From a bacterium (GTDB taxonomy: Bacteria > Patescibacteriota > Gracilibacteria > JAHISY01), in the NCBI GenBank assembly GCA_021779375.1, contig JAJYAT010000003.1:62001-126000 (forward strand): a stretch of DNA of 64,000 bases. Reading direction: 5' to 3'. Positions 13,428 to 26,701 of the stretch are shown here, piece after piece (the stretch's first letter is position 1; every line of letters starts with the position of its first letter). The translations under genes and the position numbers were made by a program. The notes below the pieces were generated by a model that did no database searches, had not been told where the DNA came from, and worked only from the letters and a program-made list of their open reading frames with translations.

Positions 13428-14612
13428 TCATGCTTCATGCTTCAGAATGTACTCGCGCAGCGGCGGGATGCCGTTGAATTCAATCGAACTGTATGAGGTC
13501 GTGTAGGCACCAGTCGAGAAAACATAAATGCGGTCGCCTTCGCGGCTTTTTTTCGGGAGTGTGTATTTGAAATTCTCGTACAGGACATCGACACTGTCGC
13601 AGGTCGGACCGGCGAGAATCACTTCGCGCAAGTCGCGCGAGTGTCTTTCGGTAAAAATCGGATATTTAATCGCCTCGTCGGTCGTCTCAATCAGACCACC
13701 GAATTTCCCGATGTCGAGAAAAACCCACTCGGTTTCGCTGGTCGCTGATTTTTTGGCGATTGTAATAATCTCGCTCACTATCACGCCAGCATCGCCGACA
13801 ATCGAGCGGCCCGGCTCGACAAAAATTTCCGGCATGTTCGCGCCAAAATTTTTCTTCAAAAAACGCTTGATTTCTCGAGCGTAAATTTTGAGGTTTTGTG
13901 CCGGCTGCAGATATTTCGACGGGAAACCGCCGCCCAAATTAATCGCGCGCAAATTCACGCCCTCGTGTTTTGCCAAACCGAAAATCTGCTTGACCTGACC
14001 GATGGCGTTGTCCCACTGACCGATGTGGCGCTGCTGCGAGCCGACATGGAAGGAAATACCGTAAGGATCGAGTTTGCGTTTTTTCGCTTCGATAATCAGG
14101 TCATAAATCATGTCGGGGTGCGCGCCGAATTTTCGCGAGAGTGGCCAGTCTGCGCCGCTGCCTTCCGTGATGAGTCGGAAAAAGATTTTTGATCCGGGCG
14201 CGCGGCGGGCAATTTTCCGCAAATCTGAGAATGAATCCGTCACGAAAATCCGCACGCCCTTTTTGTAAGCTGATTCGATGTCGGCTTCTTTTTTGATTGT
14301 GTTGCCGAAGCTGATTCGTTCGGCTGACACGCCGAGGTCGAGTAATTTATCAATTTCAAAAATCGTCGCCGCGTCAAAATTCGAGCCCTTTTTGTGGAGC
14401 AATTTAATCACGCGCGGATTGGGATTGGCCTTGATCGCGTAATAAATCGCAGCTGTGGGGAAGTTCTCGTGGAGCTCGTCGTAGTTCTGTGCGATTTTTT
14501 CCAGATTGATAATCAAAAAAGGCGTTGCCTTATCCGCAGCAAACTTTTTGATTTCCTCAAACTCAGCCTTACTCACGAAATTTGAGATTTTGCGGGTGGT
14601 GGAAGTGAGCAT
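13428..14612 (-). CDS. ornithine/lysine-type PLP decarboxylase (alanine racemase fold)
   Basis: The 394-residue product is a group IV PLP decarboxylase. Visible signatures: YYAIKANPNPRVIKLL with the PLP lysine near residue 63, FHVGSQQ near 190, LGGGFPS, EPGRSIVGDAG, GPTCDSVDVL with the catalytic Cys/Asp region near 340, and STGAYTTSYSSIEFNG. The GPTCD motif and length fit eukaryotic-type ornithine decarboxylase and bacterial lysine/ornithine decarboxylases rather than LysA. The product would be putrescine or cadaverine; which substrate is not decidable here. The first codon is taken as ATG 14612. It lies on the same strand just behind tRNA-Gly and its half-tRNA repeats, so its mRNA may be released by tRNA 3' processing. 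Confidence 0.88.
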   Translation of the reverse strand: MLTSTTRKISNFVSKAEFEEIKKFAADKATPFLIINLEKIAQNYDELHENFPTAAIYYAIKANPNPRVIKLLHKKGSNFDAATIFEIDKLLDLGVSAERISFGNTIKKEADIESAYKKGVRIFVTDSFSDLRKIARRAPGSKIFFRLITEGSGADWPLSRKFGAHPDMIYDLIIEAKKRKLDPYGISFHVGSQQRHIGQWDNAIGQVKQIFGLAKHEGVNLRAINLGGGFPSKYLQPAQNLKIYAREIKRFLKKNFGANMPEIFVEPGRSIVGDAGVIVSEIITIAKKSATSETEWVFLDIGKFGGLIETTDEAIKYPIFTERHSRDLREVILAGPTCDSVDVLYENFKYTLPKKSREGDRIYVFSTGAYTTSYSSIEFNGIPPLREYILKHEA

Positions 14613-14628
14613 CAAAGATTGCGAGAAA

Positions 14629-14768
14629 TGGAGCGGATGATCCCGCTAGGCGGGACGACCTGCGCTTTTTAAATTGGAGCGGATGATCCCGCTAGGCGGG
14701 ACGACCTGCGCTCTGTGAAGTTGGAGCGGATGATCCCGCTAAGCGGGACGACCTGCGCTCTGTGAAGT
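14629..14768 (-). repeat. three tandem half-tRNA-Gly repeats
   Basis: Three units of 46-47 bases begin at 14629, 14675 and 14722, in register with the 3' end of tRNA-Gly at 14769. Read on the minus strand each unit ends AGGTCG - 16-nt hairpin - CATCCGCTCCA. That is the tRNA-Gly variable region, a T-arm-sized hairpin of the same 16-nt length, the 3' acceptor strand, discriminator and CCA. The T-arm itself is replaced by TCCCGC-(CTA or TTA)-GCGGGA. Units differ by few bases. Confidence 0.85.
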
Positions 14769-14845
14769 TGGAGCGGATGACCGGGTTCGAACCGGCGACC
14801 TCCACCTTGGCAAGGTGGCGCTCTAGCCAACTGAGCTACATCCGC
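14769..14845 (-). tRNA. tRNA-Gly (anticodon GCC)
   Basis: Cloverleaf of 77 bases with encoded CCA. Acceptor GCGGATG pairs with CATCCGC; the anticodon stem CCACC/GGTGG encloses TTGCCAA, anticodon GCC; T-loop TTCGAAC. TAAAAT lies 9 nt before the mature 5' end. It reads GGC and GGU codons. Confidence 0.97.
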
Positions 14846-14854
14846 GTGCCGAGA

Positions 14855-14860
14855 ATTTTA
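14855..14860 (-). promoter_or_regulatory. -10 box (TAAAAT), tRNA-Gly
   Basis: TAAAAT 9 nt before the tRNA 5' end. Because the RNA end is known here, it supports reading TAAAAT as the -10 element at the protein genes. Confidence 0.65.
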
Positions 14861-14883
14861 GCAAAACTTTTTTTGAATTCAAT

Positions 14884-14895: not shown

Positions 14896-15357
14896 GTGAA
14901 AATTCGTATTTTGGCAATCGCGAAAAAGCCCCAAAATTGGGCTGCGGCAGCAGAGGCTGATTTTTTCAAGCGTCTGCAGAATTTCGCCGAAATCGAGATT
15001 ATCTTGCTTGCTCCGGCCGATGAAAATTCGCTTGCGGAAAAGGCGAAAAAAATTGAAGCGGACAAACTGCTCACCAAAATTTCACCTGACGATTTCGTGT
15101 TGGCCTGCGATCCGGGTGGTCGCAGTTTGAGTTCGGAAGACTTCGCGGAAATTTTCCGCGAGGCGCGCGACACTGCAAAAAAAGTTGTTTGTGTGATTGG
15201 CGGTTCGTCTGGTCTTGATGCCAAAGTCTTGGCGCGGGCGGATTTGAAAATCTCTTTTTCGCCAATGACTTTCCCACACGAGCTTTTTCGTGTGATTTTA
15301 CTTGAGCAGATTTACCGCGCGTTCACCATTCTCGCCGGAAAAAAATATCACAAATAG
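14896..15357 (+). CDS. rlmH: 23S rRNA (pseudouridine-1915 N3) methyltransferase
   Basis: RlmH is a SPOUT-class methyltransferase that modifies helix 69 of 23S rRNA in the 70S ribosome with S-adenosylmethionine. The 153-residue product has the typical start IRILAIAKKPQNW, the knot residues VIGGSSGLDAKVL near residue 100, and the strongly conserved end ISFSPMTFPHELFRVILLEQ...GKKYHK. Length (about 155) fits the family. The start is GTG at 14896. It is divergent from tRNA-Gly, whose promoter lies 24 nt away on the other strand. Confidence 0.95.
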   Translation: MKIRILAIAKKPQNWAAAAEADFFKRLQNFAEIEIILLAPADENSLAEKAKKIEADKLLTKISPDDFVLACDPGGRSLSSEDFAEIFREARDTAKKVVCVIGGSSGLDAKVLARADLKISFSPMTFPHELFRVILLEQIYRAFTILAGKKYHK

Positions 15358-24217: not shown

Positions 24218-24793
24218 TTATTTTCTCAGTCGTTCCTCGTCTTTTTCCCAATTTTCAGGGTTCTGCCAAATGTAATCACGAATGTTATTTAATTCATCGT
24301 CGTCGCGAATGACATGGTCGTGAAATGATTTTTGCCAGACGGAATAAATTTGAGAATTTTGTTGGCGGATGATTCGGGTGACCGATGATTTGAATCCGTG
24401 AATTATTTTTGGAATCGCCATTTTGGTTCGATCAATTTTTTGTGATTGTGTTTGTGGAGAACACGGTATTTGTAGGGAACGCAGATCTGCGTTCCCTACG
24501 CGTTTTATAATTTTGTTCGAATTTTCAATCCAAATCAACCCGTGCACATGATTCGGCATCACCACGAATTCATCCAATTTTGCATTCGGAAAATGGTCGG
24601 GGATTTCGCGCCAACATTTTGTGGTGACCCGACCCAATTCATTCAAGACCATTTTGTTATTTTGAATTTCGCCAAAAATATTTTCGCGATTGGCGGTGCA
24701 GATGGTGATGAAATATGCGCCGTCGTTCGCGTAATCGAAATCTTTCAGTCGCGGCAATTTGCGGTCGCGGTCGGGGTGGGACGAGGCGCGCAT
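24218..24793 (-). CDS. REP-associated tyrosine transposase (RAYT), copy A
   Basis: This 191-residue protein is a Y1/HUH single-strand transposase of the RAYT group. Seen: RKLPRLKDFDYANDGAYFIT, the HUH motif in VVMPNHVHGLIW (near residue 83), SVWQKSFHDHVIRDDDEL, and DYIWQNPENW, whose Tyr matches the YIxxNP catalytic tyrosine of bacterial RAYTs. Family knowledge: RAYTs act on REP palindromes that carry a GTAG tetranucleotide. A 28-bp palindrome of that type (24472-24499) lies inside the gene and encodes VGNADLRSL; two more lie just upstream (24872, 24922). Copy B at 59642 is a paralogue. Motifs look intact, so it may be active. Confidence 0.88.
   Translation of the reverse strand: MRASSHPDRDRKLPRLKDFDYANDGAYFITICTANRENIFGEIQNNKMVLNELGRVTTKCWREIPDHFPNAKLDEFVVMPNHVHGLIWIENSNKIIKRVGNADLRSLQIPCSPQTQSQKIDRTKMAIPKIIHGFKSSVTRIIRQQNSQIYSVWQKSFHDHVIRDDDELNNIRDYIWQNPENWEKDEERLRK
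24472..24499. repeat. 28-bp perfect palindrome inside RAYT copy A
   Basis: GTAGGGAACGCAGA followed by its exact reverse complement. The same 28 bases recur at 24922, with shared flank CGGTATTT on the left. Confidence 0.9.
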
Positions 24794-24871: not shown

Positions 24872-24899
24872 GTAGGGAACAAAAATTTTTGTTCCCTAC
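24872..24899. repeat. 28-bp perfect palindrome (GTAGGGAAC type)
   Basis: GTAGGGAACAAAAA followed by its exact reverse complement; same ends as its neighbours, different core. Lies upstream of RAYT copy A. Confidence 0.9.
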
Positions 24900-24921: not shown

Positions 24922-24949
24922 GTAGGGAACGCAGATCTGCGTTCCCTAC
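24922..24949. repeat. 28-bp perfect palindrome, identical to 24472-24499
   Basis: GTAGGGAACGCAGA followed by its exact reverse complement, again preceded by CGGTATTT. Spaced 22 bases from the palindrome at 24872. Confidence 0.9.
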
Positions 24950-26553: not shown

Positions 26554-26601
26554 GTGCGCCCGTAGCTTCCACCTTCGCCAAGGCTTCGGTGGACGGGCGG
26601 C
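26554..26601 (+). repeat. partial tRNA-Arg-like element
   Basis: GTGCGCCCGTAGCT here is an exact copy of the first bases of the tRNA-Arg region at 26623. It is followed by a hairpin TCCACC...GGTGGA and then CGGGCG, which can pair with CGCCCG as in an acceptor stem. The rest of the tRNA is replaced by the hairpin. Confidence 0.55.
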
Positions 26602-26624
26602 TGGTTAGCAGCAAAAAATAATGT

Positions 26625-26701
26625 GCGCCCGTAGCTCAGCTGGATAGAGCATCAGCTTGCGGAGCTGGGGGTCGTAGGTTCAAATCCTGCCGGGCGCACC
26701 A
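26625..26701 (+). tRNA. tRNA-Arg (anticodon GCG)
   Basis: 77-base cloverleaf with encoded CCA: acceptor GCGCCCG/CGGGCGC, D-arm GCTC/GAGC with A in the D-loop as in tRNA-Arg, anticodon stem TCAGC/GCTGG around TTGCGGA (anticodon GCG), T-arm with TTCAAAT. Bacteria usually read CGN with an ACG tRNA modified to inosine; GCG is uncommon. Confidence 0.93.

Follow-up and report, generated by a model that had tools for sequence, protein, structure and literature searches.

Partial tRNA gene copies with arms replaced by short palindromes in Patescibacteria and other bacteria

What are the three near-identical, CCA-ending sequences that follow a tRNA-Gly gene in a member of the Gracilibacteria, and how did each come to carry a palindrome where a tRNA arm should be? 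The locus lies in a stretch of 64,000 nucleotides, hereafter the window (contig JAJYAT010000003.1, positions 62,001 to 126,000, assembly GCA_021779375.1), from a genome of 1.07 Mb (G000); the only Rfam matches in the window are to tRNAs. The tRNA-Gly(GCC) gene (14769–14845, minus strand) is intact and encodes its CCA (ARAGORN; Rfam RF00005, 70.5 bits). Repeat search, alignment and folding delimited three units behind it on the same strand: unit 1 (47 nt, 14722–14768), in which the hairpin TCCCGC-TTA-GCGGGA at 14734–14748 replaces T-arm positions 50–64; unit 2 (47 nt, 14675–14721; hairpin 14687–14701, loop CTA); and unit 3 (46 nt, 14629–14674; hairpin 14641–14655, loop CTA). The start-to-start spacing of the units is 46, 47 and 47 nt, in register with the tRNA-Gly 3′ end. 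A preliminary description of this DNA had reported a tRNA-Gly with three tandem, CCA-ending part copies in register, and ARAGORN, Rfam and the repeat search confirm it. The decarboxylase gene that it placed 3′ of the array on the same strand is also there (13428–14615, minus strand); the product carries the domains of PLP-dependent ornithine/DAP/arginine decarboxylases, and its reading frame starts about 14 nt past the last CCA of the array. A single sigma-70-like promoter match was identified 5′ of tRNA-Gly (14855–14882, minus strand; 9/12, a consensus match only), and no terminator-like site was reported on the minus strand from tRNA-Gly to the end of the array. Beyond the promoter match lies the gene of an RlmH-type SPOUT methyltransferase (14896–15357, plus strand), which is syntenic with tRNA-Gly in two relatives, G002 and G004.

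Each unit is composed of a spacer, the 3′ strand of the D-arm, AGGTCG, TCCCGC-NNN-GCGGGA and TCATCCGC-T-CCA. The unit cores, AGGTCG-TCCCGC-NNN-GCGGGA-TCATCCGCTCCA, were located at 14722–14754, 14675–14707 and 14629–14661, with loops TTA, CTA and CTA, respectively. Unit 1 directly follows tRNA-Gly and opens with ACTTCAC ahead of the D-arm strand, AGGTCG, the hairpin and TCATCCGCTCCA; the spacers between units are 13–14 nt. Alignment to tRNA-Gly revealed that the anticodon arm is cleanly absent between GAGCGC and AGGTCG in each unit and that the D-arm 3′ strand survives as AGAGCGC, or as AAGCGC in unit 3, two features that the preliminary description lacked. The 5′ acceptor strand is absent as well; the variable loop and the 3′ acceptor strand with CCA are retained by each unit. 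The exchange of the T-arm for TCCCGC-NNN-GCGGGA had been recognised correctly, but its length had been given as 16 bases; the perfect palindrome spans 15 nt, or 17 if the G and T on either side are counted, and takes the place of tRNA positions 50–64, with the closing bases G49 and T65 retained. A single loop base separates unit 1 from unit 2. Unit 3 matches unit 2 throughout the 33-nt core but has a diverged spacer (core, no changes; spacer, changes at 5 of the 13 positions compared; Fisher p = 0.0009, on hand-set counts). We rejected a chance origin of the array on the basis of the repeats, the rarity of the pattern, the survey of tRNA flanks and the null for arm-exactness described below; the folding of a 246-nt region (z = −5.07) is likewise far from random expectation. 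A CRISPR array was also rejected: the repeat is 33 nt, but the spacers of 13–14 nt are too short and are themselves repeated.

The units might act as RNAs. According to this explanation, the CCA-ending hairpins would serve as tRNA-processing decoys, as points that release the downstream mRNA or as small acceptor-like RNAs, much as the preliminary description had proposed when it listed decoys, signals for 3′ processing, a source of minihelices and mRNA release. Each unit is predicted to form one extended hairpin beside its 3′ CCA (z = −3.3 to −4.2 for single units; −20.3 kcal/mol and z = −3.94 for unit 1), the core is unchanged where the spacer of unit 3 has diverged, and full-length swapped copies at other loci retain the cloverleaf layout. 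The comparison with relatives argues in the opposite direction. At the tRNA-Gly locus beside RlmH, copy number changes, as a comparison suggested earlier was meant to reveal: G000 has three units, G004, which belongs to the same genus, a single relic whose hairpin differs, and G002 no adjacent copy. G005 carries one relic of its own tRNA-Gly, in which no arm-swap palindrome was detected. The Gly-type array of the congener G002 sits on another contig, between unrelated genes and away from any tRNA, and has decayed: over 33 nt its two copies differ at 5 and 6 positions, a CCA has been lost from one and both palindromes are mismatched. This turnover, together with the decay in G002, speaks against a conserved function and suggests that relics still linked to the gene are young, although the decay evidence comes from one detached array, and linked copies could also owe their intactness to gene conversion by the neighbouring tRNA. 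The near-identical retained segments and the unchanged core of unit 3 could likewise reflect selection or gene conversion rather than youth. The decarboxylase gene was not found in the stretches examined around tRNA-Gly of G002, where the contig is short, and G004, and on this ground control of the decarboxylase by the units was rejected. Genes downstream of relics vary, many relics are 5′ fragments without CCA or end in the middle of an arm, and several lie past a terminator-like hairpin (Ignavibacteria, Bacteroidetes). A t-element-like processing signal would be cut from a transcript by RNase P or RNase Z; the units of the window have no 5′ acceptor strand. None of the roles proposed earlier found support, and we regard functional RNAs as distinctly improbable.

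We surveyed partial tRNA copies independently of any palindrome pattern by combining ARAGORN with a local BLAST of each tRNA against its own 700-nt flanks, other tRNAs being masked, for 192 tRNA genes of six genomes (G000, 46; G003, 42; G005, 20; G042, 39; G354, 35; G353, 10). G005, G353 and G354 are partial samples and G042 is nearly complete (Rfam matches: 42, 32, 42 and 41, respectively). Same-strand partial self-copies were identified at 49 of the 192 genes (G000, 12; G003, 8; G005, 9; G042, 12; G354, 6; G353, 2), and no antisense copies were present in these flanks (0/192). When each flank was searched with one random non-cognate tRNA, 3 of the 192 gave a same-strand match and none an antisense match. 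The aligned relic segments are mostly 100% identical to the parent gene and mostly lie within 200 nt of it, some as far as 553 nt. Further copies in G000, next to Lys(CTT), Arg(TCT), Pro(GGG) and Asp, emerged at a looser threshold and by eye, and unswapped tandem copies were absent among its 46 tRNAs. The window itself contains a second relic, a 5′ copy of tRNA-Arg(GCG) (GCGCCCGTAGCT; 26556–26612, plus strand), with a D-arm broken by a 26-nt palindrome (26568–26593, TCCACCTTCGCCAAGGCTTCGGTGGA); the intact tRNA-Arg(GCG) adjoins it (26625–26701, plus strand; ARAGORN).

Partial copies beside tRNA genes are usually ascribed to integrating elements, with an element of 9–23 kb between copy and gene, according to the passages of van der Gulik et al (2023; PMC9897764) on which we draw. 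The relics could accordingly be attachment-site scars, that is, half copies left where elements integrated in an anticodon or T loop and have since disappeared, with the palindromes a later arrival. As in the fragments covered by those passages, an intact tRNA is accompanied by a same-strand part copy whose breakpoints fall in one of these two loops; copies of the 5′ part are found upstream of the gene and most copies of the 3′ part downstream of it, the flank is mostly unrepeated, and outer split tRNAs enclose an intact one at several loci. However, no integrase-bearing element of 9–23 kb lies between the intact and the partial tRNA; in most relics the spacer measures between tens and a few hundred nt, which leaves no room for such an element. 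Tandem arrays of two or three units are not expected from integration, and the exact replacement of positions 50–64, 27–43 and 11–24 by palindromes is left without explanation. Attachment-site scars seem to us very unlikely.

At the loci L145, L123, L172 and L188, the intact tRNA lies between an upstream 5′ fragment and a downstream 3′ fragment, as if inside an older split tRNA, and inverted repeats flank the inner tRNA at L145 and L188.

Simple tandem duplication should leave a repeated flank, and one accompanies 12 of 34 3′-end relics and 3 of 12 5′-end relics. Since this is a minority, duplication accounts for some copies and not for all, which lowers simple tandem duplication as the source of every relic; many copies may have another origin.

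Palindromes in the copies were screened within the surveyed flanks as GC-rich, perfect palindromes with a stem of at least 6 and with tRNA sequence on both sides. The screen gave 44 such palindromes. An arm is exactly replaced by 32 of them (16 T-arms, 9 anticodon arms and 7 D-arms), 5 were inserted cleanly with no loss of tRNA sequence, and the remaining 7 were classed as other; in two of these seven, the palindrome is CCTGCC, its outer pair is ambiguous, and inspection by eye again indicates a clean insertion. For the statistics we left out the CCTGCC insertions and merged tandem or shared rows (37 rows to 27), keeping the exact row at the Thr locus of G354. We also excluded the 29 tRNA-linked sites derived from a pattern, because the pattern fixes the left edge. 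Among the 27 independent replacements, 23 coincide with an arm to within 1 nt at both ends; when gaps of equal size were slid along these tRNAs, the mean was 2.5 and the maximum 10 in 100000 trials. The stretches replaced are 50–64 for the T-arm, 27–43 for the anticodon arm and 11–24 for the D-arm, and the retained edges (49/65, 26/44 and about 10/25, respectively) mean that one base pair, or pair position, is kept at the base of each arm. D-arm palindromes are mostly TCCGCC..GGCGGA, anticodon-arm palindromes TCCCGA..TCGGGA or TCCCGC..GCGGGA, and T-arm palindromes TCCCGC..GCGGGA. The CCTGCCTRCCGGYAGGCAGG palindrome is inserted rather than exchanged.

Swapped units were also amplified at other tRNAs. 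Tandem arrays comprise three units at Gly and at Asp (G010) and two apiece at Pro, Leu, Gln (G042), Glu and Thr (G003); the hairpins of an array are the same or almost the same, and several arrays repeat the spacer too. Tandem amplification of a T-arm-swapped unit of 45–47 nt occurred independently at tRNA-Asp (G010, three units) and tRNA-Pro(TGG) (G042, two units). The earlier suggestion of a slippage product that spread a palindrome is thus upheld in part: the single loop-base difference between units 1 and 2 and these independent amplifications agree with it. Other loci display stepwise stages. A Bacteroidales tRNA-Val is followed by two copies, the first with a swap of the anticodon arm alone and the second with swaps of both arms; a full-length copy upstream of a Komeilibacteria tRNA-Gly has the T-arm alone swapped; and at a Bacteroidetes tRNA-Gly, the terminator was duplicated along with the copies.

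Among 353 genomes of the class, 7 contain the pattern GGTCGTCCCGCN{1,8}GCGGGA, at 15 sites, of which 14 lie beside a tRNA gene and one, in G212, does not; read backwards, the pattern is absent from the 353 genomes. In a named genome collection, AGGTCGTCCCGCN{3,4}GCGGGAY matched 93 stretches; the 80 loci covered among these hold 86 sites, 29 of them at most 800 nt from a tRNA gene; many of the remaining sites fall in high-GC genomes. The tRNA-linked sites come from Patescibacteria, Bacteroidetes, Ignavibacteria, Calditrichia and one record labelled Woesearchaeota. Within G000, TCCCGCN{1,8}GCGGGA has 23 sites, 5 of them in tRNA relics, and TGCCTRCCGGYAGGCA 12 sites, 6 in relics. The tRNA-linked swap records inspected are MAGs or labelled uncultured, and no isolate genome with an arm swap was seen; with an assembly artefact in mind, we note that relics are present in many independent assemblies and inside long contigs. 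The best reading is that arm-swapped tRNA relics are a widespread class, to which the units of the window belong. We found no description of arm-swapped tRNA copies or of an exact arm exchange in the titles and abstract openings of the open-access papers that our text searches listed.

The palindromes invite comparison with REPs. Passages of Di Nocera et al (2013; PMC3733652) distinguish two superfamilies, tagged GTAG and CGTC, the latter in Bacteroidetes and Chlorobi, and give the CGTC type an unpaired tag, a stem of 8–9 bp with A-T pairs in positions 1–2 and a CCA-like tail; REP palindromes exceed 100 copies per genome according to the abstract of PMC2817692. Under REP transposition, REP-like hairpins moved by RAYT, an IS200/IS605-like Y1 enzyme, would enter tRNA copies after a resident GTAG or CGTC, and the native arm, resembling a tagged hairpin, would be lost in the same reaction. 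Entry would be at the GTAG before the D-arm and at the CGTC formed at T-arm and many anticodon-arm junctions, and both known tags are indeed readable at swap junctions: the GTAG native to the tRNA precedes D-arm swaps, and the sequence at T-arm swaps is GGT-CGTC-CCGC. Proteins matching PF01797 occur in 12 of 16 genomes, with four in G000, one of them in the window, and the CCTGCC palindrome behaves as a clean mobile insertion. Like REPs, the arm palindromes are short and GC-rich with CCCGC/GCGGG cores. Unlike REPs, which are intergenic, they replace tRNA arms exactly, are few per genome and lack a separate unpaired tag; their stems of 6–7 bp start with T-C-C and have no A-T pair in position 2, and the CGTC and GTAG readings use tRNA bases. 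GTAG is in any case conserved in tRNAs and hence no independent evidence. Known Y1 chemistry inserts a hairpin without deleting one from the target. PF01797 was unmatched in G003, G010, G042 and G358, all with relics or swaps, which lowers RAYT as the sole agent, and the palindromes around the RAYT gene of the window have another sequence, GTAGGGAAC..GTTCCCTAC. Overall, REP transposition appears unlikely as the source of the swaps.

The RAYT-like gene of the window (24218–24793, minus strand) scores above the cut-off for PF01797 and just under it for NF047646; its palindromes lie at 24872–24899, 24922–24949 and, inside the open reading frame, 24472–24499. Canonical-looking REP copies (TGTCAT-TCCCGCGAAAGCGGGA-ATCC) were identified elsewhere in the same family, for example, at locus L100 of G005. 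At L253 (G000:C3:19594-19824), a Y1 transposase domain match falls within an open frame of 1236 aa.

Arm exchange beside many tRNAs of distant bacteria points to hairpin swapping in DNA by an undescribed route. We infer that hairpins are exchanged in DNA while it is single-stranded and that the relics do not function as RNAs. Retroposition of tRNA copies is unlikely, since RVT_1 (PF00078) was absent from five swap- or relic-bearing Patescibacteria (G000, G003, G005, G010 and G042) and was present in 2 of 11 genomes. On balance, we consider it probable that the units of the window are relics of tRNA-Gly whose arms were exchanged hairpin-for-hairpin on DNA, the resulting unit then being amplified in tandem. 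A redundant copy, whole or partial, would arise beside the gene; one or more of its cloverleaf arms would form hairpins in single-stranded DNA; and an arm would be exchanged at its base for another short, GC-rich palindrome during replication, by template switching or by a hairpin-recognising ssDNA enzyme. In the window, the anticodon arm would also have been lost at its base before the swapped unit of 46–47 bp was duplicated in tandem. Alternatively, palindrome and copy might have been made in one event. A swapped copy would share less homology with the gene, and this may let it persist where unswapped tandem copies are lost. Against exchange at the DNA level we count that neither an intermediate nor an enzyme was seen in this analysis. 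More tentatively, Patescibacteria, Bacteroidetes, Ignavibacteria and others could possess a hairpin-exchange reaction on DNA; recognising an extruded hairpin, such as a cloverleaf arm, at its base, the reaction would spare one base pair and swap the inner hairpin for a palindrome of similar length, and tRNA genes would record it as their redundant copies tolerate the exchange.

The nearest tandem array of tRNA 3′ ends to the window units is, we take it, that of the E. coli tyrT repeats (rtT RNA region). These lie in tandem 3′ of the tRNA gene, measure about 178 bp and each repeat the tRNA 3′ end including CCA. The two arrays share tandem tRNA-3′-end repeats with CCA downstream of a tRNA; however, no arm of the tyrT repeats is known to be swapped for a palindrome, whereas the window units are 46–47 bp long, have the T-arm exchanged and have counterparts at many tRNAs and in several phyla. 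Hairpin elements also occur in Rickettsia genes (RPE; passages of PMC3733652) and in sponge mitochondria (passages of PMC2800124). The CCTGCC palindrome of G000 behaves like the elements of those passages in being mobile and entering genes. RPEs and the mitochondrial hairpins are insertions, whereas the relics show an exact exchange of arm for hairpin, which the passages of PMC2800124 do not describe.

Three other observations deserve mention. The 20-bp CCTGCCTGCCGGTAGGCAGG palindrome apparently lies inside protein genes (by eye argC-like and Mur-ligase-like) at L254 (G000:C1:21912) and L262 (G000:C12:128101), a placement that resembles Rickettsia palindromic elements. A structured element of about 150 nt is present ~140–200 nt after tRNA genes at L070 and L057 (G000), L331 and L334 (G003) and L308, L317 and L322 (G005). 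This element begins after a terminator-like hairpin, has a GGTTYC-GGCG core and ends in GCYANC, on which a partial copy of the cognate tRNA follows, running from the T-loop (TTCRA) to CCA; the element adjoins Ala, Leu, Val, Arg, Ser, Tyr, Asp and, in part, Glu tRNAs, and its Rfam hits all fell below the gathering score, none being convincing. A candidate division WOR-3 genome (L126, L159, L169, L187 and L196) carries a dispersed repeat, ACCACAG-AGGTCGTCCCGCCTTAGCGGGATCCCGAAGGAAGCGGGACAGAGA, away from tRNAs.

Arm-swapped relics explain tRNA-like debris that annotation tools may misread, and they mark recent turnover of tRNA genes in one-copy tRNA sets. With their known boundaries, tRNA arms offer a natural test set for the mechanism of exchange. 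If hairpins exchange as units, REPs and RPEs would gain a possible route of spread without target-site duplication or insertion, and this would bear on how CGTC-type repeats without a dedicated transposase move.
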